From assembly GCF_003352065.1 (NCBI RefSeq), contig NZ_CP025803.1, positions 1,240,001 through 1,304,000 on the forward strand: DNA of 64,000 bases. The letters run 5' to 3'. The notes under the pieces are model-generated. The model was not told where the DNA came from. It did no database searches and saw nothing but the letters and a program-made list of their open reading frames with translations. The translations under genes were made by a program, and so were the position numbers. Positions 32,454 through 44,922 of the stretch are shown one piece after another (the stretch's first letter is position 1; every line of letters starts with the position of its first letter). Source of the DNA: Sulfitobacter sp. SK011. GTDB taxonomy: Bacteria; Pseudomonadota; Alphaproteobacteria; Rhodobacterales; Rhodobacteraceae.

Positions 32454-33761
32454 CTACTTAACGATCACTTCGTCCTTGACGAACATGTTGGCCCACGCCC
32501 GGTCGATGAGGTCAGGCGACATTCGATAGGGGATGCCTTCAAAATCGCAGATCGCGATCATCTGGTCGATCAGAAAGATCGGCTGATAGTTTGCATATAC
32601 ATTGTCGATTGTGGGGTATTTGACCTTGAGCAGATGCACCAAAGTCGCCTCATCCAGCCCCATGCCGCGTTTGCGTGCCACCATGGCAAAAATCTTGAGA
32701 AAGTTTTCCTGATTGGGGCCATCAATTTTAATCTTAAAGAAGATACGGCGCAGGGCGGCGGTATCAAAAATCTCATTCGGGTGGAAGTTGGTTGAAAAGA
32801 TCACCAGCGTGTCGAATGGCACCTCGAATTTTTCACCCGACTGCAGCGCCAGGATATCCTTGCTTTCTTCCAGTGGCACGATCCAGCGGTTGACGATGCT
32901 TTGCGGTGGTTCTTTTTGACGGCCAAGGTCATCCACAATGAAAATGCCGCCCGTTGATTTCAACTGTAATGGGGCCTGATAGGTGCGCGCCGTTGGGTTA
33001 TAGACCAGATCAAGCATATCAAGCGACAGTTCGCCACCGGTGATAACGGTTGGCCGCTCGCAGCAGACATAGCGTGCATCATAGCGGGTAACGCGGCGCA
33101 GGGATGTGGGGTCCTGGACCTCATCCTCGGCGGCGGAATGGACGATTGGGTCATAGACGGTGATCACCTGCGAGGCGTATTCGATCGCCCGTGGGACATA
33201 GACCCGGTCGCCCAAAGCATCACGGATCCCGTTGGAAATACTGGATTTACCGTTGCCCGGCGGGCCGTACATCAGAATTGAGCGCCCCGCAGATACCGCA
33301 GGCCCCAGATGGTCCAGAAGGCTGTCGGGCAGGACCAGATGGCCCATTGCACCGACCAGTTGCTCGCGGGTAATCTGCAGATTGCGCACCGACTGGCGTT
33401 TGACCTGTTCGCTGTAGACCCCCAGCGGCACCGGCATCGGACCGAAGTATTCTGACTGTGCCAAAGCATCCAGCGCGCGCGCCTTGCCGGCATCGGTCAG
33501 CTGATATCCCATTTCGTTGCCATTTTGGGCATTCAGGGTACCGGTTGCTTCCAACAGGCGCTGTTCGCGGGCCATATCGACCAATTCTTGTGTGACCTGA
33601 ATGGGAAGGCAAACCGCACGGGCCAGTTCACTTACCAAATCGACGTTTTTTCGAAAGATTGTTTTCAGCAGAATGTCCCGCATCATAACGATGGGCAGCC
33701 GCATATCTTCTAACCGCTTGGGGGGCGGCGGGGCCACTACGCTGGACGCTTGGACGTTCAT
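32454..33761 (-). CDS. Tad-linked winged-helix AAA+ ATPase, uncharacterised
   Basis: ATPase of 435 aa at the distal end of the Tad locus. The N-terminal part (about 15-135) looks helical with a winged-helix-like stretch (EMGYQLTDAGKARALDAL). The ATPase core has Walker A GPPGNGKS (166-173), Walker B FIVDDLG (274-280), sensor-1-like STN (323-325) and an Arg pair (338-339). The C-terminus carries a small helical domain. AGGAG lies 8 bases before the ATG. It is not a secretion ATPase of the CpaF or PilT type. Its role is unknown; a regulatory or remodelling part in pilus biogenesis is inference from position. Confidence 0.8.
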   Translation of the reverse strand: MNVQASSVVAPPPPKRLEDMRLPIVMMRDILLKTIFRKNVDLVSELARAVCLPIQVTQELVDMAREQRLLEATGTLNAQNGNEMGYQLTDAGKARALDALAQSEYFGPMPVPLGVYSEQVKRQSVRNLQITREQLVGAMGHLVLPDSLLDHLGPAVSAGRSILMYGPPGNGKSSISNGIRDALGDRVYVPRAIEYASQVITVYDPIVHSAAEDEVQDPTSLRRVTRYDARYVCCERPTVITGGELSLDMLDLVYNPTARTYQAPLQLKSTGGIFIVDDLGRQKEPPQSIVNRWIVPLEESKDILALQSGEKFEVPFDTLVIFSTNFHPNEIFDTAALRRIFFKIKIDGPNQENFLKIFAMVARKRGMGLDEATLVHLLKVKYPTIDNVYANYQPIFLIDQMIAICDFEGIPYRMSPDLIDRAWANMFVKDEVIVK

Positions 33762-33830
33762 GACAACACTCCTGACGAATGGGGGCAGGGAATGTGATAC
33801 CTGCACCAAAAGGGCTGAATATGGTGTGAA

Positions 33831-34325
33831 TCACGCACCATATTTTGCACCCAGAATAAGATACACGGCCAAAGTCGCGCCAAGGGCAAGACCCATGGGG
33901 AATTTTTTTGCTTGTGACCAGCTGGCCCAATCGGGGGCCAGTCTGCGCAATGGCGAATGTTTTGCCAGCCGGTGCGTTGCGACAGAGGCCAAGGTGACCG
34001 CCATAAAAAGCGCCATCAGCATTCGCAGATCGCCCAAAGCCACAAAAGGGGCACCTGCAGCCAGAAATTTGGAATCTCCGGCCCCCATCACGCCTGCGGC
34101 ATTCAATACAACACCAATGACCAACACAGTCACAAGGCCCAACAGACGCCAGAGATAGGTGTTGAACGGCAAGACAAACAGACCCACGACAACAAAGACC
34201 AAAGCCAAAACGACAACAGCCTGATTGGTGATGCGCATCTGTGCCATGTCGGTAAACATGACGTAAAAACAGATCGGCAAGACAAAGGGCAGAAACCACA
34301 GTGCAGATGTGGCGGTGATCGCCAT
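33831..34325 (-). CDS. cpaA: Prepilin peptidase (CpaA/TadV type)
   Basis: Short A24-family aspartic peptidase (164 aa) without the methylase domain, with several membrane helices. The two active-site aspartates are D26 (FTDMAQMRI) and D84 in GAGDSKFLAAG. It should cleave the Flp-type prepilins encoded at 44.1-44.9 kb. The start follows the upstream TPR gene by only 4 bases, so it belongs to the same operon. Confidence 0.9.
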   Translation of the reverse strand: MAITATSALWFLPFVLPICFYVMFTDMAQMRITNQAVVVLALVFVVVGLFVLPFNTYLWRLLGLVTVLVIGVVLNAAGVMGAGDSKFLAAGAPFVALGDLRMLMALFMAVTLASVATHRLAKHSPLRRLAPDWASWSQAKKFPMGLALGATLAVYLILGAKYGA

Positions 34326-34329
34326 CGCG

Positions 34330-35184
34330 CTAGCCGTTGTCTTCGAGCGCGCGCAAGGACCGTACGGCTGCTTCGAAGTGCTGTGGATGTGTATCAATTG
34401 CTTCGCGCAGCAGGCCTTTACCTGTTTCAACGTCGCCTTGCTTGATCGCAGAAAGGCCCATTGTGTGCAGCAAGAGCGCACGTTCTGTCTGATCCATCGG
34501 GATCACCGGCAATGAATAGTCGCGTTGCGCCGAGCGCGCGAGGACGAGATTGTTTTTGGCGGTAAACAAGCTGGTATCCTGACGCACGGCGTCCGAAAAC
34601 AGCCGCTCGGCATCTTTGTAGTCACCGCGCGTCAGTTTGGAATAGCCCCAATTGTTCATGACGGAACCGGGCGTCGTGGTCAGCCCGACCGCCGTTTCAT
34701 AGAAACTGTCGGCCTTCGTCCATTCCTTCTTACTGTCTGCGATCAGTGCAGCAAGGCGATACCGCTTAAATGTCTCGTGTGTTGGAGGGACACTGTTGAG
34801 AACTGTTTCGGCTTTTGCCCAATCACCGCTGCGGATCAGCGCATCGGCGTATTCGACGCTGTCATCGTTTGTGGCCTCTGGCATCTTTGTCACTTTGGAC
34901 CATTCAATGGCACCCTCGGTCACACGCTTTGCACGGATTAGGGAAAGCGCAAGACCGCGTTGATGGTCGATCCTTGTTGGGTCTTCCTTGATGGAACGCG
35001 AGAAATAACTGACTGCCTCGTTCGGGTCAGCCACTGTCAGCATCACATCTGAAAGATTTGTTGCGTCGACAACATTGACGTCCTTAAAGGCCCGTTCAAC
35101 GGTGGCGTTCGCGTCTTTTTCACCGCAGCCTGCAACAACGGCGACACCTGCAATGCAGGTTGCAATTAGAATAGGGTGGCGCAT
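34330..35184 (-). CDS. tadD: TPR lipoprotein, TadD-like
   Basis: Protein of 284 aa with a lipoprotein signal (lipobox VVAGC, Cys near residue 20) and multiple tetratricopeptide repeats across residues 55-250 (for example AVSYFSRSIKEDPTRIDHQRGLA, broken here into recognisable A/G/Y-L pattern units). TadD proteins are pilotins or assembly factors for the Tad secretin. AAGGAC precedes the ATG. It is the second of two TPR lipoprotein genes in a row. Confidence 0.85.
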   Translation of the reverse strand: MRHPILIATCIAGVAVVAGCGEKDANATVERAFKDVNVVDATNLSDVMLTVADPNEAVSYFSRSIKEDPTRIDHQRGLALSLIRAKRVTEGAIEWSKVTKMPEATNDDSVEYADALIRSGDWAKAETVLNSVPPTHETFKRYRLAALIADSKKEWTKADSFYETAVGLTTTPGSVMNNWGYSKLTRGDYKDAERLFSDAVRQDTSLFTAKNNLVLARSAQRDYSLPVIPMDQTERALLLHTMGLSAIKQGDVETGKGLLREAIDTHPQHFEAAVRSLRALEDNG

Positions 35185-35226
35185 TTTTGCGTCCTTTTTA
35201 CTGCTCTGCCTCGGGCTTGGTGTCGG

Positions 35227-35820
35227 TCATATGCCGGGACGGATCAAATAGTCACCCGCACCGCGCCGCACCAATTTATAATTATCATCGTCAAGATCAT
35301 TAATAACAGAATTTTCTGATTTTGCGAGCGCTAAGCGCAGATTGTCACGGATTGCGTCACTTTCGCCATTGTCCAGCGCATAGGCCTTGCGAAATATCTG
35401 TACCGCCTCGGGGGTTTTGCCCCTTTCGATCAGCACAACACCCAGATTATTCCAATCTTCAGGCTCGGTTTCGTTCTCTTTGACGGCGCGCCGCAACAGA
35501 TCTTCGGCTTGTCCCAGACGGCCCAGGCCAAGGTTCGCACTGCCCAGGCCTGACAGGATTTCGGCATCAACGCCTTGCGCAAGTGCAGCGCGGTTAAAGG
35601 ATTTGATCGCCAACTCATACTGTCCGGCCGCCATCAGGCGATGACCAACTTCTACACCGTCTTCGGCGTCTTTGCGTTGATTGACCCCGGGCGCATAGGG
35701 GTTTTCGGTTTTCTTCTGGAACAGCGGCGCAGAAAAGCCGCCCGGTGAACAGGCGGCCATTCCAAGAATTGTTATAAGTGCCATCGCGCAGGTTGCCCTG
35801 CGCCAGCGTCTTGATGTCAT
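35227..35820 (-). CDS. TPR lipoprotein, second TadD-like protein
   Basis: Protein of 197 aa with a lipoprotein signal (ILGMAAC, Cys near residue 24) and about three TPR units (QYELAIKSFNRAALAQGV; RLGQAEDLLRRAVKENET; KTPEAVQIFRKAYALDNG). Its ATG overlaps the tadC stop by one base (TAATG), supporting the long start. It probably acts in the periplasm with the other TPR lipoprotein during secretin assembly. Confidence 0.85.
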   Translation of the reverse strand: MTSRRWRRATCAMALITILGMAACSPGGFSAPLFQKKTENPYAPGVNQRKDAEDGVEVGHRLMAAGQYELAIKSFNRAALAQGVDAEILSGLGSANLGLGRLGQAEDLLRRAVKENETEPEDWNNLGVVLIERGKTPEAVQIFRKAYALDNGESDAIRDNLRLALAKSENSVINDLDDDNYKLVRRGAGDYLIRPGI

Positions 35821-36797
35821 TATTGGCCCGGTCCGCTTATCTTACCCAATTGTGTAATGCCGTGTACCGAAGGGCCAACCAGAATGATCAGCAATGGCGG
35901 TACCGTCAGCATCATTGTGGCAAGGGTCATCTTGGTTGGCAACTTGTTTGCGGCCTCTTCGGCGCGCATCACCCGTTTGTCGCGCATTTCAGCCGCATAA
36001 ACCCGAAGCGCGTCTGAGATTGACGTACCAAAAGCGGCCGATTGCACCAGAACGGTTACAAATGACGACACATCCTGCACGCCACAACGTTCGCCCATAT
36101 CGTTCAGCACGGTCACCTTGTCTTTACCGGCCTTCATTTCGTAAGCGACAACTTCGAACTCGTCAGCAAGGGCCTTGTACGACGCACGCAATTCACGCGC
36201 CACACGGACGATACATTGGTCCAACGACTGGCCGGCCTCAACGCAGACCAGCATCATATCAAGCGCATCGGGAAACCCGCGTTCGATTTCCTGTTTGCGC
36301 ATACCAACCCGGCGCGTCACCCAGTACTTGGGCAGGTAATACCCGATGCCACCGGGCCCCACGGTATACATCATCATCTTCTGGGTGCTCATGCCTTCGC
36401 CTCCGCCCAGAAAGTTGACATATACGATGCCTGCAAACATACCGAACAGGCCCAAAGCCATCTGGGCAAAGTAGAACATCCGCACTGCATCACGGGACTG
36501 ATACCCCGCCTGACGCAGCATCAACTGTTTCGCGCTCAGTTCGGCAACGTCCTCGGGTTCGAGAAATTTGGCAAACTTCTGTAGCTGTTGGTTCCCGTCA
36601 GCCTGCCGCAACTTTTTGGTCGGATCAGCGGATTTCGCTGCTGGGCTTGATGCCCGCTTGAGTTTGTTCAGCGGGTCTTCTGGTTGCTTCACAATCAGGA
36701 CAACAGTGATCGCAACAAGGACCAGACCCAGCACGCCGACGATAATGATCAATCCAATTGGGCCCAGGACCGCTTCGATCTGATTTAGGAATTCCAT
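35820..36797 (-). CDS. tadC: Tad pilus platform protein TadC
   Basis: T2SSF/GspF-domain membrane protein (325 aa). An N-terminal membrane helix (about 10-35) is followed by a cytoplasmic region with the F-domain sequence FPDALDMMLVCVEAGQSLDQ, and further helices near 110-160 and at the C-terminus (LATMMLTVPPLLIILVGPSV). With TadB it forms the inner-membrane platform that couples CpaF motion to pilin extrusion. Confidence 0.92.
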   Translation of the reverse strand: MEFLNQIEAVLGPIGLIIIVGVLGLVLVAITVVLIVKQPEDPLNKLKRASSPAAKSADPTKKLRQADGNQQLQKFAKFLEPEDVAELSAKQLMLRQAGYQSRDAVRMFYFAQMALGLFGMFAGIVYVNFLGGGEGMSTQKMMMYTVGPGGIGYYLPKYWVTRRVGMRKQEIERGFPDALDMMLVCVEAGQSLDQCIVRVARELRASYKALADEFEVVAYEMKAGKDKVTVLNDMGERCGVQDVSSFVTVLVQSAAFGTSISDALRVYAAEMRDKRVMRAEEAANKLPTKMTLATMMLTVPPLLIILVGPSVHGITQLGKISGPGQ

Positions 36798-36809
36798 CGC
36801 AAATGCTCC

Positions 36810-37772
36810 TTACACTTTGATGTCTGTGAGGACGCGCATCACCATCAGGTTTGCCGCGAGGAAGATGCCCACAATAAAGCAGGCCGGGATGAAGAAGGCG
36901 TGGTCGCGCACTTCATCATAGTAATTCGGGTCTAGAACGTTGATCACGATCAGCGCAACAATCGGGAAGGCGGAGAGAAACTTGCCTGACCATTTCGCCT
37001 CAGCGGTGATCGCTTTCACGCGGCGAAACAGGCGGAAACGGGCGCGGATCACCTTTGCCAGACCGGCGAGGATTTCGGCGAGGTTACCACCAGATTGCTG
37101 TTGGATCGTCACGGCAACGGCCAGGAACCGCAAATCCTGCATGTCCAGCCGCTCGGCCATGTCTTTCAGCGCTTCACCGACGTCGCGACCATAGGCGGCC
37201 TCATCCGAGATCACGCCGAATTCAGACGCCAGCGGATCCTGAATTTCCTTGGATACAATGGTAATGGCACTGGTGAACGGATGACCGACCCGCAAGGATC
37301 GCACCATCAGTTCGACTGCGTCAGGCAGTTGTTCTTCGATCATGCCCATGCGCTTGTTGGCTTTGGATGAAACCCAGAAATAAACACCACCCACGCCGAT
37401 GCCCACGGCAAGCAGGGCGCGAACAGGTGGTTCGGTTTCCGTGCCAACAGTCAGCGCCAAAAAGGCGAAAACAGCCACACCAGCCATGATCATCAAAAGC
37501 TGCTTGGGCGAAAACGCGATTGCGGCTCTTTGCGCCTTTTCCGAAAGCAGCGAATACAATGGAATTGACTTTGAATTCATGTGCTGCTGCATTTCCTTGC
37601 GCAGCTTTTCCAACACCTCTTCGCGGCGTGTGCCTTTTTCGAGCATTTCAAGGCGGCGGTTAACACGGCTGTTCAGGCTGATGGATTTACCAAAAGCCAC
37701 CAGATACAGACCTTCGACCAGCACCAGCACGCCAATGAAAATCAGGCCATAGATAATTGGTTCGGCACTCAT
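36810..37772 (-). CDS. tadB: Tad pilus platform protein TadB
   Basis: T2SSF-domain membrane protein (320 aa), the paralogous partner of TadC. The F-domain is marked by LPDAVELMVRSLRVGHPFTS and LAVAVTIQQQSGGNLAEIL, with membrane helices at about 5-25, 90-130, 265-285 and 295-315. Twelve bases separate it from tadC and it starts 12 bases after cpaF. Confidence 0.92.
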   Translation of the reverse strand: MSAEPIIYGLIFIGVLVLVEGLYLVAFGKSISLNSRVNRRLEMLEKGTRREEVLEKLRKEMQQHMNSKSIPLYSLLSEKAQRAAIAFSPKQLLMIMAGVAVFAFLALTVGTETEPPVRALLAVGIGVGGVYFWVSSKANKRMGMIEEQLPDAVELMVRSLRVGHPFTSAITIVSKEIQDPLASEFGVISDEAAYGRDVGEALKDMAERLDMQDLRFLAVAVTIQQQSGGNLAEILAGLAKVIRARFRLFRRVKAITAEAKWSGKFLSAFPIVALIVINVLDPNYYDEVRDHAFFIPACFIVGIFLAANLMVMRVLTDIKV

Positions 37773-37784
37773 GACTTGTTTTCC

Positions 37785-39215
<1,431 letters not shown>

Positions 39216-39238
39216 GTCTGCGCTCTTTCTATATGGGA

Positions 39239-40474
39239 TCAGGCCGCTTGAGCCTGATCACCTTTCAGGTCATGGATGGACGCCGCCAGTTTGGCGATCT
39301 CGCGTCGCAGTGGGCTTTTGGGGGCAGAATTGGCCAACGGCGTACCATGGTCGTTGGCCTGCGTGATCGGCTTGCCGCCGTCGGGCAACTGCACGTCAAT
39401 GGAAATGCTCAGCGATTCCGCCATACGTTTGACGCGACCCTTGCCACTCAGATCGGTGAATTTCGGCGCACGGTTCATCACATAGCGCAGCTTTTCGACT
39501 GGCAGCTCCTCAGATTGCAACGCACGCTTAAAGCGCAGCGTATTCTGTGCCGATCGCATATCCAGTTCCAACATCGCGAAATAGACATGCGCATTGCTCA
39601 GCACGGCTTCGGACCATTGCACCAAGGTCGAGGGCATGTCGACAATCACATAGTCAAACTGATTGCGCGCGATCGTCAGGATACGGTTCACATCCTCGGA
39701 TGTGATCAGATCAAGCGGCAACATGTCGGTCGGTGCGGTCAGCACCTGCAATTTATCGCCAAAGGTCAACAAAGCCTGGCCAAAGATTTCTTCGTCCATG
39801 GTTTCTGTGTCAGACAGCATGTCATAAACGACCTCGCGCCGCGGCAGGTCGAGAAATGTGGCGACAGCACCAAACTGCAAATCCAAATCCAGCAAACAAA
39901 CGGACGGGGATTCGTTTTTACCAACACAGGCCAGTTCCCACGCAAGATTGACGGCAAGCGTGGTTGAACCCGTGCCACCGGCCAATCCGTGCACCACTAT
40001 CAGTGCGCCATCTTTTGAGGCACCGGCCTTAAGCTGCGGAGCGTTGGCGGTGGGGGCAGGGGCCTCTTCTATCGCACGGACGCGGGCAATGGCCTGGGCC
40101 AATTCACCTTCTGGCAATGGGTAGGGGACAAATTCATCGGCACCTTGGCGCAACAGCGAATGCAAGGCGGCGGGTGTCACGTCTTCAGCGATTAAGATCA
40201 CTTTGATATTGCGGGATTTGGCTTGGGTGATGATCTCGGTCATCAGAACCAGATTGTCTTCATCTGTTTCATCTATCGCCAAGGCAACAAATTCCATGTT
40301 GTTCGCTTCTGGTTGCCCGAAAAATGCCAGTGCCTCAGCAAACCCTAAATCACCCCAGCTCTCACCAAGTGCATCTTCCATATCCTCGATCAATAGATCA
40401 AAGTTTTGCACATCGCGGCTGATGGTACAGGCCACGATGGGTGCTGTTTCTGGTTGTGGCATACTGCTGCTCAT
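39239..40474 (-). CDS. cpaE: Tad pilus localisation protein CpaE/TadZ
   Basis: Protein of 411 aa combining a receiver-like N-terminal domain (about 15-130) with a ParA/MinD-type ATPase domain. The nucleotide loop at about 164-172 reads GLAGGTGSTTLA, lacking the usual lysines of a deviant Walker A; such atypical loops are known in TadZ proteins. TadZ places the Tad machine at the cell pole. It is the first gene of the cytoplasmic Tad operon: a terminator and 286 bases of non-coding DNA lie upstream. Confidence 0.9.
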   Translation of the reverse strand: MSSSMPQPETAPIVACTISRDVQNFDLLIEDMEDALGESWGDLGFAEALAFFGQPEANNMEFVALAIDETDEDNLVLMTEIITQAKSRNIKVILIAEDVTPAALHSLLRQGADEFVPYPLPEGELAQAIARVRAIEEAPAPTANAPQLKAGASKDGALIVVHGLAGGTGSTTLAVNLAWELACVGKNESPSVCLLDLDLQFGAVATFLDLPRREVVYDMLSDTETMDEEIFGQALLTFGDKLQVLTAPTDMLPLDLITSEDVNRILTIARNQFDYVIVDMPSTLVQWSEAVLSNAHVYFAMLELDMRSAQNTLRFKRALQSEELPVEKLRYVMNRAPKFTDLSGKGRVKRMAESLSISIDVQLPDGGKPITQANDHGTPLANSAPKSPLRREIAKLAASIHDLKGDQAQAA

Positions 40475-40711
40475 GACCTAATCCTTTACTATCAAGGGTT
40501 TGGCAGAGCGATCCTTTGCGTCTTACGCGCAATTGAACTATCTCCGCGACCACCCATGCCCAGGCCATTGCCCAGACACATCTGTCCTATTGCTGGGAAT
40601 ATCACAGGCAACTTGGGCAGGATTGGGGCCAAAAAGGTCTGATTGTTGGGTATCTTGAAACGATCACGCTGAAAGCTGGTGATTGATCAGAGGTATTTCG
40701 CGACGCGAAAC

Positions 40712-40742
40712 GAAAAACGCCGCCCCCGAAAGAGGGCGGCGT
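40712..40742 (-). terminator. Rho-independent terminator after the OmpA-type gene
   Basis: Nine-bp stem ACGCCGCCC/GGGCGGCGT followed on the minus strand by TTTTT. It ends the cpaB-cpaC-ompA unit, so cpaE and later genes need their own promoter within 40475-40711. Confidence 0.85.
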
Positions 40743-40760
40743 CGCAAAATTTTGACCAAA

Positions 40761-41441
40761 TTATTCGGCGGCCAATTCGCCCACCGCGCTGCCGGTCAGC
40801 TGTGTCGGCGGTACAGCGCTGGCAATATAATCACGGTAAATGATCTGTGCATATTTGCCGTCCAGAACTGTTGGATGTCCTTTCACGAAACCGCTCACTT
40901 CGGTCACCGTACGCCTGTTGCGCCGTTCGCGACCTTGTGTAACGACCAATGGCTGCGTTTCACCAAACGAAACAACGGCTTCAAGGCGGCTGCGGCTGAT
41001 GCCCAATGTGGACAAATATCCAACAACGGCGTTTGCCCGTTTCAGGCCCAATACTTTGTTATATCTGTTCGATCCGACAGCGTCGGTGTGACCGAAGACA
41101 CGGAACCGGATTTCCGGAAACTGCCTGATCCACCCGGCTTGTTGACGCAACACGGCTTGTGCATTTCCGTCCAACTGTGCAGAATTAAAGGCAAATGTGA
41201 CGGTTGAGTTCACGTCTTCTGCAAAACGGTTTGCCAGATTAAAGGTATGTTGGCGTTCGCCAGTCATGACCAGACGGTTGTTCAGGGTTGCGTTGCCAAA
41301 GCTGCCAGTATCGGCGATTGCCCCTGCCTCTCGGTAGAACTGGGTGTAAACCGGGTCCGGGCTCGGTACGCAGCCCATCACTGTTGCGACCGCGGCTGTC
41401 AGACCGATAATGCTGAATTTGTTGGCCTTCACGCTTTTCAT
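40761..41441 (-). CDS. OmpA-family lipoprotein of the Tad locus
   Basis: Protein of 226 aa with a lipoprotein-like signal (TVMGC, Cys near residue 23) and a C-terminal OmpA domain (about 85-195): TVTFAFNSAQLDGNA, FRVFGHTDAVGSNRYN and GLKRANAVVGYL carry the peptidoglycan-binding Asp and Arg. It occupies the place where CpaD/TadG-type envelope proteins occur in other Tad loci and probably anchors the secretin to the cell wall. It starts 4 bases after cpaC. Confidence 0.87.
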   Translation of the reverse strand: MKSVKANKFSIIGLTAAVATVMGCVPSPDPVYTQFYREAGAIADTGSFGNATLNNRLVMTGERQHTFNLANRFAEDVNSTVTFAFNSAQLDGNAQAVLRQQAGWIRQFPEIRFRVFGHTDAVGSNRYNKVLGLKRANAVVGYLSTLGISRSRLEAVVSFGETQPLVVTQGRERRNRRTVTEVSGFVKGHPTVLDGKYAQIIYRDYIASAVPPTQLTGSAVGELAAE

Positions 41442-41445
41442 TGTT

Positions 41446-42870
41446 TTAGTCCAATACATAGCCATAAGACCCGCCAAAGTCCTGCTTGGCAACCTCACCA
41501 GCGGCACCTCTTTTGGGAGTGCGGGTGCCATCAGCTGTGCGGCCAAAGAGGAAGAGGTCTTTTTCAGTGGGTGGTTTGATCCGATCCGTTGGCAGGGCCA
41601 AAGCCTCACCCCGGGTCGGGGTTACCAGATGCGCGGTGACAATGATGACCAATTCGGTCTGGTTGCGCTGATAGTCCGCAGAACGGAACAGCGCACCCAG
41701 AATGGGCACGTCACCGATCCACGGCAGTTGGCTTGAGTTGTCGGTAAAGTCGTCCGTTAGCAATCCGGCAATCGCAAAGCTCTCTCCATCGCGCATTTCG
41801 ACCGTCGAAGAGGTCTCGCGCCGGGTAAAGGCCGCGATTTCGATACCATTGCCCAATGCCAGGCTGTTTGTCGGATCAATCGCCGACACTGCGGCCTTGA
41901 GTTCAAGGTTGATCAGGTCTTTGTCCACAACACGCGGGATAAAGGCCAGTTCAACGCCGAACGGCTTGAATTCAATGGTTATCCGTTCACCCGTCTGTGC
42001 AACCGGTACGGGGTATTCGCCACCTGCAAGGAACTTCGCCTCCTGGCCCGACAAGGCCACAAGGTTTGGCTCTGCGAGAAAGCGGACGACGCCTTTTTGT
42101 TCAAGTGCCTCAAGCAACAGCCCCACCTGAGTGGATCCTGCGTTAAAGCCAAACAGGACAGCACCTGCATTTTGGTTCGAGGTCGGAATGGACCCGCCCA
42201 ATGACCCAAGAACGCTGCTTGCCGTGTTGGTCGTGCCTGTCCCCGCGTTAAGGTCCGAGCCACCAATCGCCAGTGATGAACTCAAGGATTTGGAAACGTT
42301 ACGCTGCATTTCAGCAAAGCGAACCTTCAGCATTACTTGCTGAATTCCACCAACGCTCATGAGGTTGGACACCCGTTCAGGGGCGTAGCGTTCGGCCAGA
42401 TCAAGCGCGCGCTGCAGGCGCTGGGTGGAGGAAACGATGCCAGACAGCACAATACCGTCATTGGCTGTGCGAACTTCAATCCGCTCGCCGGGCAGGATCT
42501 GCCGCAGGCGTTCCTTGAATTCGGTGACGTCCGCTGCGACACGCACATTGACGTTGGTAATCAGTTGTCCGCTCGCATCCAGCAAGGTCAGAGTGGTTGT
42601 TCCGGGCGATTTGCCCAGCACATAGATGTTGCGATCCGACAAGGAAGAGATATCGGCAATGCCTGGGTTGGCGATGCTGAGTTCCGCGAAGGGAATGTCA
42701 CTTTCGACAACCACCGCGCGGTTCATCGGCACATGCAAGTCCGTGTTTGTACCCTTCTTAACCACACGCAATGTCTCGGCTGAAACCGAGGTTGGTGTCG
42801 TCAATGCCATAGGTACGGCGCTCAATGTCAGCCCTACGAGAGCTGCTTTTAGAAATCTATCGATTTTCAT
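41446..42870 (-). CDS. cpaC: Tad secretin CpaC/RcpA
   Basis: Outer-membrane secretin of 474 aa. A signal peptide (about 1-31) is followed by the pilus N-terminal domain (ETLRVVKKGTN... NIYVLGKSPGTTTL), a BON-like domain, and the secretin core (about 240-410; VRFLAEPNLVALSGQEAKFL and GGEYPVPVAQTG). A Gly/Ser/Thr-rich segment near 200-235 belongs to the gate region. It forms the channel for the Flp pilus. GGCAGG lies just before the ATG giving MKIDRFLK. Confidence 0.93.
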   Translation of the reverse strand: MKIDRFLKAALVGLTLSAVPMALTTPTSVSAETLRVVKKGTNTDLHVPMNRAVVVESDIPFAELSIANPGIADISSLSDRNIYVLGKSPGTTTLTLLDASGQLITNVNVRVAADVTEFKERLRQILPGERIEVRTANDGIVLSGIVSSTQRLQRALDLAERYAPERVSNLMSVGGIQQVMLKVRFAEMQRNVSKSLSSSLAIGGSDLNAGTGTTNTASSVLGSLGGSIPTSNQNAGAVLFGFNAGSTQVGLLLEALEQKGVVRFLAEPNLVALSGQEAKFLAGGEYPVPVAQTGERITIEFKPFGVELAFIPRVVDKDLINLELKAAVSAIDPTNSLALGNGIEIAAFTRRETSSTVEMRDGESFAIAGLLTDDFTDNSSQLPWIGDVPILGALFRSADYQRNQTELVIIVTAHLVTPTRGEALALPTDRIKPPTEKDLFLFGRTADGTRTPKRGAAGEVAKQDFGGSYGYVLD

Positions 42871-43017
42871 GTGACCTGCCTTTTTGATCACGCCTCAATG
42901 TAGGGTCTTGGTGCCCGTCGTTTGGAACACTCTGCGGCAGTTTCATTTTTATTGCAAGAATCAATGAGTTCAGGGGGAAAGCTTATGTGGATAAATGGCA
43001 ACATAATATGGAATGCA

Positions 43018-43044
43018 ATGACGCCGCACAATGTGCGGCGTCAT
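43018..43044. other. 27-base perfect palindrome between cpaB and cpaC
   Basis: Thirteen-base arms (ATGACGCCGCACA and its complement) flank a single A. It lies in the 205-base gap after cpaB and before cpaC. Neither side has a T-run, so it is not a typical terminator. It may be an RNA-processing hairpin or an operator. Confidence 0.7.
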
Positions 43045-43075
43045 GTTAACCATTTGATTTTTCTGGCGAGTTGGT

Positions 43076-43933
43076 TCAGTTCGTGCAGGGAATGGGCAGT
43101 TCCACAACCTCGGCCCCGCGGCGGGTCCGAATGGTGCAAACTTTCTCTTTTTCAATTTCTGCTTTGACTTCTCGGCTGGCGATGCCAAGCAAAGACCGCT
43201 GGTTGACCTCAATAGAAGAGGCAACTGTATCATCTCCCGCGCCGACCAATGCCAACGACAGATTGCCCGTTGATTGTGCCTGCGCCAAGGACGCAACTTG
43301 CTGGGGGCTGATCGCAACAGTCACCGTGCGGGCGATGGTGGTTTCATTCAGTTCGCCACCGGCACTTTGGTCGATGGCAATCAGTTGAACGTTAGCCTCG
43401 ATTAGTTTGGTGACATCACCTTTGTCGGGTGCGCCGGCGACATTCACGCGGCCTGTCCAATAGATGTCAACGCGGTCGCCAGGACGCAAAAAGCCCGAGA
43501 CGCCGCTGGATACATCGACCTTAATCGCAAAAGCACGTGTCCCTCGTGCCAGACGCGAGGTCAAACCTGTGTCCTCACCGGGTTCGGTAACTTTCAGTGC
43601 CAAGATCGCTTCGTCTTTTTCCATTTGCCGCAATACCACCCGCAATTCGTCGGTATTTTCGGGAAAGAGGGCGACCAAATCAACAAATGCCCCTTCCGGA
43701 ATTGCATTTTCCGGCCATGCAACTGCGCGGACATCCTCTTTGGTCAGCTTTTGACCATACTTAAGGGGGCCTTGTGCGACATAGACCGTTTTGGTGGGAA
43801 CAATCTCAGCCAGAGCTGCCTGTGCCTGGGCATTGGCAGCCTGATACTGAGCAATTCGATCCTTGGCCAAGTACACGGCACCACCGGCAAGCGCGATGCC
43901 TAGCAAAAGTACCAATCCAAAAACCATTCGCAT
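43076..43933 (-). CDS. cpaB: Tad pilus periplasmic protein CpaB/RcpC
   Basis: Protein of 285 aa with one N-terminal membrane helix (about 3-23, MVFGLVLLLGIALAGGAVY) and a SAF domain (about 48-110) of the beta-clip fold (KTVYVAQGPLKYGQKLTKED). The RcpC-like C-terminal part contains VSGFLRPGDRVDIYWTG. It connects to the secretin in the periplasm. The ATG at 43933 lies 5-6 bases after GAGGTG; the GTG at 43942 is part of that ribosome site. Confidence 0.9.
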   Translation of the reverse strand: MRMVFGLVLLLGIALAGGAVYLAKDRIAQYQAANAQAQAALAEIVPTKTVYVAQGPLKYGQKLTKEDVRAVAWPENAIPEGAFVDLVALFPENTDELRVVLRQMEKDEAILALKVTEPGEDTGLTSRLARGTRAFAIKVDVSSGVSGFLRPGDRVDIYWTGRVNVAGAPDKGDVTKLIEANVQLIAIDQSAGGELNETTIARTVTVAISPQQVASLAQAQSTGNLSLALVGAGDDTVASSIEVNQRSLLGIASREVKAEIEKEKVCTIRTRRGAEVVELPIPCTN

Positions 43934-44070
43934 TTCAGTCACCTCATCTAGATTTATTTACCGGAAAGTTTCCCGGACCTGCTGTGGGAAACAATGTCAG
44001 GCAATTATGGTTTTTGTTTGCCATTGGTCAGGCAAAAACACGATCAATGCTGCCAAAAGATGCAGGCCCA

Positions 44071-44101
44071 AAAGAAAAAGCCGGCCAAAGAATTAGCCGG
44101 C
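44071..44101 (-). terminator. Rho-independent terminator after the pilin genes
   Basis: Nine-pair stem (GCCGGCTAA with TTGGCCGGC, one G-U pair, as read on the minus strand) followed by TTTTTCTTT. It separates the highly expressed pilin genes from cpaB. Confidence 0.88.
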
Positions 44102-44124: not shown

Positions 44125-44307
44125 TTAAGGACCAACAGGGCGTGCTGCGAGATACGTGCTTATGCCAGAGCTTACGTTGCCGGAGCTGCCGTTAATTGAG
44201 ACGATAACAGCACCAGCTAAACCGACAACAGCGGCGGTCAGAACAACCCAGTCTACTGTTACAGCGCCGTCCTCGGAAGCGCGAAAGTTCTTCAGTTTGC
44301 TCCACAT
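44125..44307 (-). CDS. Flp-like pilin paralogue 1
   Basis: Small protein (60 aa) shaped like a Flp/Tad prepilin: short basic leader MWSKLKNFRASEDG, probable cleavage after Gly14, then AVTVDWVVLTAAVVGLAGA as the hydrophobic assembly helix. Canonical Flp pilins have Glu at +5 and Tyr at +6 of the mature part; this one has Asp and Trp. The C-terminal tail is rich in Ser and Gly. AAGGAA lies 8 bases before the ATG. It is the last of three tandem copies and the most divergent in its leader and tail. Confidence 0.8.
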   Translation of the reverse strand: MWSKLKNFRASEDGAVTVDWVVLTAAVVGLAGAVIVSINGSSGNVSSGISTYLAARPVGP

Positions 44308-44417
44308 GATGTGTTCCTTAAAAAGTGCAATGATAAAAAGGTAACAGTCTGCATGACTAAAGGGCAGCGCGCCGTATCCAGCGAACAGCCCCCATGGCAG
44401 TCGCTCAGGACTGAAGT

Positions 44418-44597
44418 TTAATTAGGATCCTGCGCTTCGATGTACGCAGCTGTGGCGGCAGTCAATGCAGTCGCGCCGTCCTCGATGGTTTGATAGGCAG
44501 CAACGGCCAGACCAACAACAGCAGCGGTAAGAACGACCCAATCGACTGTTACCGCCCCATCTTCGTCTTCACGAAAGTTTGCGATAAATTTTATCAT
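44418..44597 (-). CDS. Flp-like pilin paralogue 2
   Basis: Small protein (59 aa). The leader MIKFIANFREDEDG ends at a prepilin-type Gly, followed by AVTVDWVVLTAAVVGLAVAA. The core helix is almost identical to that of paralogue 3, while the tail (ALTAATAAYIEAQDPN) is distinct. Asp and Trp replace the usual +5 Glu and +6 Tyr. AAGGA precedes the ATG by 7-8 bases; an earlier in-frame start would include the ribosome site. A strong stem-loop lies in its leader region. Confidence 0.82.
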   Translation of the reverse strand: MIKFIANFREDEDGAVTVDWVVLTAAVVGLAVAAYQTIEDGATALTAATAAYIEAQDPN

Positions 44598-44631
44598 GGT
44601 GTGTCCTTTCATACTAAGAGCTGGTTCGAAG

Positions 44632-44693
44632 TTCTACCAAGCCGACCGGATGACACTGTCACTTTTGAGAAAGTGCCCGCCAGCTTGGTAGAA
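44632..44693 (-). promoter_or_regulatory. Structured leader before pilin paralogue 2
   Basis: An 11-base perfect inverted repeat (TTCTACCAAGC at 44632-44642, complement at 44683-44693) encloses a CACTTT/AAAGTG hairpin (44660-44675). Much of this block, including the CACTGTCACT and CTTGGTA strings, recurs before paralogue 3. It lies 35 bases before the start codon, in the likely 5' untranslated or intercistronic RNA. Confidence 0.6.
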
Positions 44694-44715
44694 TGACCTA
44701 GTTCAAGTATTGAAC

Positions 44716-44922
44716 TTAAGGAGCAACAGGTGCTGGCGCTGCGCCACCTGGTGTCCGGCCTTCGATGTATGTAGATGTAGTGCCGGTCAGTGCGACGGTA
44801 CCGGTCTGGATTGAGGTATAGGCAGCAACGGCCAAACCAACAACGGCAGCGGTCAGAACGACCCAGTCAACTGTTACAGCGCCGTCTTCGTCTTTGCGGA
44901 AGTTTGCAATAAATTTCATCAT
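44716..44922 (-). CDS. Flp-like pilin paralogue 3
   Basis: Small protein (68 aa). Leader MMKFIANFRKDEDG, probable cleavage after Gly, then AVTVDWVVLTAAVVGLAVAA and a longer tail ending in Pro/Ala-rich sequence (GRTPGGAAPAPVAP). Same Asp-Trp signature as the other two copies. GGAGG lies about 8 bases before the first of two ATGs, the strongest ribosome site of the three. It is the first pilin gene transcribed and probably the main pilin. Confidence 0.82.
   Translation of the reverse strand: MMKFIANFRKDEDGAVTVDWVVLTAAVVGLAVAAYTSIQTGTVALTGTTSTYIEGRTPGGAAPAPVAP

Follow-up and report, generated by a model that had tools for sequence, protein, structure and literature searches.

Can a Tad pilus be built on an Asp-Trp pair where known Tad pilins use Glu-Tyr? 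The question is raised by three small tandem genes of Sulfitobacter sp. SK011, which lie next to a Tad operon in the window, the whole 64,000-nucleotide stretch of DNA analyzed here. The Flp motif is defined as GXXXXEY, with Glu at +5 and Tyr at +6 of the mature pilin (PMC10934763). In the Caulobacter Tad pilus, solved in 2024 at 2.8 Å, Glu19 (+5) bonds with the backbone of Ala17 (+3) and with Tyr20 (+6) of neighboring pilins; the authors described the residues of this network as conserved across Tad pilins and required for assembly, not for processing, credited the Glu-Tyr hydrogen bonds with filament stability and proposed them to be universal (PMC11067988).

Three prepilins and the adjacent Tad operon

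The three tandem genes claimed by the sequence-only reading to encode Flp-like pilins are present on the minus strand, directly upstream of cpaB. Prepilins A (68 aa; 44716..44922) and B (59 aa; 44418..44597) are the distal copies of the array, and prepilin C (60 aa; 44125..44307) is the divergent, cpaB-proximal copy. Each ATG start is preceded by a Shine-Dalgarno-like GGAGG or AAGGA, and each product displays a basic leader, a cleavage site with Gly at −1 and a hydrophobic N-terminal helix. A shares 73% overall identity with B and 55% with C. All three contain EDG followed by AVTVDWVVLTAAVVGLA, and EDGAVTVDWVVLTAAVVGLA is the stretch without any difference among them. The cut predicted after Gly, which in A falls between MMKFIANFRKDEDG and AVTVDW, yields the N-terminus A-V-T-V-D-W with Asp at +5 and Trp at +6, in agreement with the claimed exchange of Glu-Tyr (EY) for Asp-Trp (DW).

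In length (~60 aa), the cut after Gly(−1), the N-terminal helix and the position upstream of cpaB, these proteins resemble the Flp/Tad (type IVc) pilins of PF04964 (Flp_Fap), including Caulobacter PilA. However, the latter possess Ala, Glu and Tyr, whereas the window pilins possess Thr+3, Asp+5 and Trp+6, deviate from GXXXXEY and do not reach the Pfam gathering score of Flp_Fap. None of A, B and C gave a Pfam match above cut-off or an NCBIfam family match; as a result, genome annotations probably leave DW pilins without a name. Weak profile similarity, under the curated cut-offs, was detected to PF16982 Flp1_like (E = 0.005) and, along the N-terminal helix, to PF14029 DUF4244, a family of unknown function (E = 0.00075). 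Gram-positive Flp-like pilins also deviate at +6, but they and PF16982 belong to a different phylum and are defined by the absence of Tyr+6, with no fixed Asp-Trp reported (PMC3244431). Searching solved structures by sequence with the short pilin gave no match. Given that the defining Glu-Tyr motif is missing, the DW pilins are a distinct variant of Tad pilins and not plain Flp_Fap members. We nevertheless strongly infer from their sequences that A–C most probably function like Tad/Flp pilins.

The intergenic region between A and B contains an unusually stable RNA hairpin (44601..44715, minus strand) with a stem of ~15 bp and a z-score of −5.1. Similar letters are present upstream of A, suggesting that gene and leader were duplicated together; an Rfam search of the pilin intergenic regions returned no family. 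In the gap between pilin C and cpaB, a hairpin on the same strand (44080..44101) resembles an intrinsic terminator by consensus match only. A terminator between array and cpaB was rejected as a family rule, with a strict test, which missed the window's own hairpin, being positive in 16 of 129 loci and in none of the shuffles.

The assignment of the pilins to a neighboring Tad machine stands, as the Tad operon follows downstream on the same minus strand. It starts with CpaB/RcpC (43076..43942; PF16976) and the CpaC/RcpA secretin (41446..42891; PF00263), followed by an OmpA-domain lipoprotein-like protein (PF00691; 40761..41609 as the extent of the open reading frame, the true start of which is probably internal), CpaE/TadZ (39239..40474; AAA_31/ParA) and the motor ATPase CpaF/TadA (37785..39215; PF00437). 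Next are the platform proteins TadB (36810..37772), assigned by position and length and used as a homology query, and TadC (35820..36797; PF00482), a TadD-like TPR lipoprotein (35227..35820), a second TPR protein (34330..35184) and the prepilin peptidase CpaA/TadV (33831..34325; PF01478), which has 164 aa and a GAGD motif. Adjoining cpaA is a 451-aa protein without a Pfam family (32454–33809), which by eye looks like an AAA-type ATPase. The Tad/Flp (type IVc) core set of CpaF, TadB/TadC, secretin, CpaB, CpaE and prepilin peptidase is thus all found within 33831–43942.

The "full Tad machine" with a CpaA-type peptidase, as described earlier, holds for these machine genes and not for the pseudopilins. 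The window operon has no tadE, tadF or tadG, and a tadG/tadE/tadF-like trio is located ~120 kb away, near 1.404 Mb (L071/L072). The TadE/TadF-like pseudopilins of that locus (L071:1144-1683 and 572-1261) keep a Glu near the cut site, with the sequences G-AAILLEF, which has one extra residue, and G-VIAIEA. The suggestion that +5 matters for N-methylation fails, because CpaA has only a Peptidase_A24 domain, lacking the methyltransferase domain of type IVa-style peptidases, and the genome encodes no other A24 peptidase.

A fixed Thr-Asp-Trp set across the family

Rhodobacteraceae are an abundant family of bacteria often found on algae. DW profiles, which were built from DW sequences and therefore bias the census towards DW, matched 125 of 150 Rhodobacteraceae genomes, representing one genome per genus in nearly all cases. 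Flp_Fap matched 24 of the 150, ten of them above cut-off, and three of the 24 (G017, G054 and G131) are outside the DW list; thus, about 100 DW genomes have no recognizable canonical Flp. Class-wide, at E ≤ 1e-5, the DW profile was found in five of 337 genomes, all five Rhodobacteraceae, and in none of the 332 genomes of other Alphaproteobacteria. Within the class, canonical Flp is widespread (65 of 142 genomes). One of 236 plasmid records carries a CpaF match of >80% identity to the DW-locus CpaF, and this record is a 1.58-Mb replicon of Pseudorhodobacter turbinis. A tblastn search of plasmids with the pilin gave no match, which is not evidence of absence, because the low-complexity filter masks much of the 59-aa query. 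Asp-Trp pilins are a trait of the family Rhodobacteraceae.

The arrays follow a common plan. In 130 loci the array precedes cpaB on the same strand; the copy number is one, two, three, four and five in 7, 84, 30, 8 and 1 loci, respectively. Where an array has at least three copies, identity is ~98% among the distal copies but ~53% between these and the cpaB-proximal copy, and 33% over the tails. In the window, A and B form the distal pair, and C occupies the position of the divergent copy in the arrays of relatives. This plan supports major and minor subunits and is in line with the distinct subunits postulated by the sequence-only reading. Judged from the sequences, A–C are quite likely to be structural subunits, two of major type and one of a divergent minor type, of a Tad pilus specific to Rhodobacteraceae.

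In a CpaF tree, the proteins of 31 DW loci form one clade with a support of 100/99 and a long stem, and the window CpaF is a member of this clade. Separate from it are 16 CpaF proteins of EY loci from the same family, which fall into four places, and 27 CpaF proteins of other Alphaproteobacteria. The nearest relative of the window CpaF, at 92% identity, is from Sulfitobacter.

The residues around the cut site were counted in 179 pilins from 79 loci of named organisms. Trp+6 and Gly(−1) are present in 179 of 179 each, and +5 is Asp in 174 and Glu in five; one copy per locus had been picked by a pattern containing GAVTVDW, leaving ~99 unselected pilins, among which all five Glu+5 exceptions are found. 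The 299 distinct matches from the family-scan loci comprise 277 DW, seven DF, five EW, three DY, one EF, one EY and a few others, part of which reflect a shifted alignment. The Asp-Trp pair is hence not absolutely locked; Glu-Trp, Asp-Phe or Asp-Tyr occur in a few pilins. Thr occupies +3 in 405 of 427 Trp+6 sequences. For comparison, Flp pilins of other Alphaproteobacteria show Glu-Tyr in 36 of 36 and Ala+3 in 34 of 36, in a set of top-scoring Flp_Fap matches biased to typical members, from which one of the 37 extracted sequences (L372) was left out for a misplaced cut site. EY pilins of second loci in Rhodobacteraceae likewise retain Glu-Tyr.

In 341 genes preselected as DW, Asp is encoded by GAC in 287 and GAT in 54 cases and Trp by TGG in all 341, and the neighboring fixed Val, Thr, Ala and Leu use four to six synonymous codons. 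As the synonymous codons vary and the residues are fixed, conservation acts on the protein, not on the DNA, and is not due to chance. This codon pattern is purifying selection.

Three positions have changed together in the DW family, namely +3 from Ala to Thr, +5 from Glu to Asp and +6 from Tyr to Trp. A deviation at +5 or +6 as such is not new, since both Glu and Asp are allowed at +5 of type IV pilins and Tyr+6 is missing from Gram-positive Flp-like pilins (PMC3244431). The real departure from precedent is the fixed Trp+6 and Thr+3, not Asp+5 alone, and the literature searched contained no precedent for a fixed, family-wide Thr-Asp-Trp set. The same facts bear on the best surviving alternative, that these are ordinary Flp pilins in which +5 and +6 drifted once, as a neutral founder change in the family ancestor, with the core otherwise the same. 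One origin would be enough for the single motor clade, and the reported tolerance at +5 and +6 fits such drift; however, strong selection maintains the residues at sites with varying synonymous codons, +3 has switched as well, and the EY pilins that these genomes also encode stay EY. We consider neutral drift rather unlikely.

The filament core and a second, Glu-Tyr locus

The filament would probably form as follows. CpaA would cut the A–C prepilins after Gly, A and B would be polymerized to the shaft by CpaF, TadB and TadC, C serving as a minor subunit, and the filament would exit through CpaC. The hydrogen-bond network of Caulobacter type, from +5 to the +3 backbone and to +6 of neighbors, would most likely be kept in an altered form. 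The +5 side chain would be one carbon shorter, and its +6 partner larger and still a hydrogen-bond donor through the indole NH; Thr+3 could contribute its side-chain hydroxyl where the EY type uses the backbone. The Asp-Trp pair would then be a matched lock, which might also separate DW from EY subunits in cells making both. A fixed Asp-Trp alternative in nearly the whole family would constitute a large, testable exception to the Glu-Tyr filament rule, and, because some species encode both versions, the rule is directly testable.

The Sulfitobacter genome, a single contig of 4.19 Mb, is such a case. A Flp_Fap search of the whole genome had one match, a canonical EY Flp at 3.45 Mb (DESG, cut, AAIVEYGLALL), which adjoins a second cpaB. 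This locus (G000 3440000-3456000, L010) has its own TadG/TadE-type genes, cpaE, cpaF, tadB and tadC, and lacks a peptidase and a secretin of its own. Genome-wide, Peptidase_A24 and Secretin are represented by a single gene each, both at the window locus; accordingly, if both systems work, one peptidase and one secretin probably serve DW and EY alike.

This arrangement makes it highly improbable that Asp-Trp serves to match the pilin with the prepilin peptidase and not with the neighboring subunits. The cpaA gene does lie inside the DW locus, and +5 and +6 are near the cut site, but the single A24 peptidase coexists with an EY Flp and TadE/F-type pseudopilins in the same genome, and Glu and Tyr were reported to be dispensable for processing (PMC11067988). 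Pili containing a canonical Flp encoded elsewhere, and none of A–C, had been named in the sequence-only reading as evidence against its assignment; such an EY Flp gene does exist, but beside a separate motor set. That A–C are accessory or regulatory membrane proteins, with the pilin of the Tad machine encoded elsewhere, is therefore barely credible, since the one candidate, this EY Flp, has its own cpaB-cpaE-cpaF-tadB-tadC, and in about 100 of the DW genomes Flp_Fap finds nothing.

Elsewhere in the genome (L005:1450-1635; genome 339404-339520), an orphan gene encodes a 61-aa DW-like protein, YCDFRVDWIVLTASLVGLA, with Cys for Gly at −1. Owing to this Cys, the protein is probably unprocessed; it is either a copy in decay or a membrane protein that stays uncleaved.

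Long orphan prepilins with the same module

Several genera encode long orphan prepilins, new here, in which a DW-type N-terminal module precedes a C-terminal region of 80–500 residues. The genera are represented by G011, G085, G145, G036, G004, G001, G057, G075, G116 and G144, and the loci are L257, L259-L267, L269-L271, L280, L285, L286, L288, L291 and L292; some of the genes are off DW at +5/+6 (DL in L286, EF in L292 and DY in L291). By blastp, the C-termini fall into no fewer than three unrelated sets, besides tails of low complexity, and the L263 protein bears an HpiC1-like domain. The largest set, modeled from eight paralogues, reached a mean pLDDT of 76, compared to 32 for the single-sequence model. 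The model displays a confident beta-sandwich, with the N-terminal helix at low confidence. The best solved matches of the beta-sandwich are mainly carbohydrate-binding modules, with a porphyran-binding one first (E = 3.9e-5; TM-score by target 0.54). As beta-sandwich folds are common, we take possible sugar binding by this set only as a lead. The same domain is also present in very long repeat proteins of Rhodobacteraceae.

The long prepilins would join the DW pilus, either as minor subunits or at its tip, which suggests a possible way for pili to carry surface-binding domains. A related design is known from the Tad-type Kil pilus of Myxococcus, which has several interchangeable minor-pilin tip complexes encoded in separate gene clusters (PMC12075869). 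The Kil tips, however, consist of minor pilins in heterotrimers, whereas each long DW prepilin comes from an orphan gene, and it is the C-terminal domain that is swapped. Taken as a whole, Thr-Asp-Trp may be an assembly code, that is, a second self-consistent Tad core kept apart from EY in cells making both with one shared peptidase and secretin, and a portable tag that recruits diverse orphan prepilins, including those resembling carbohydrate-binding modules; we advance this broader reading tentatively, as possible rather than probable. In two genera, two long-prepilin clusters adjoin a gene for pyruvate carboxylase, a neighborhood that suggests long-standing positions.
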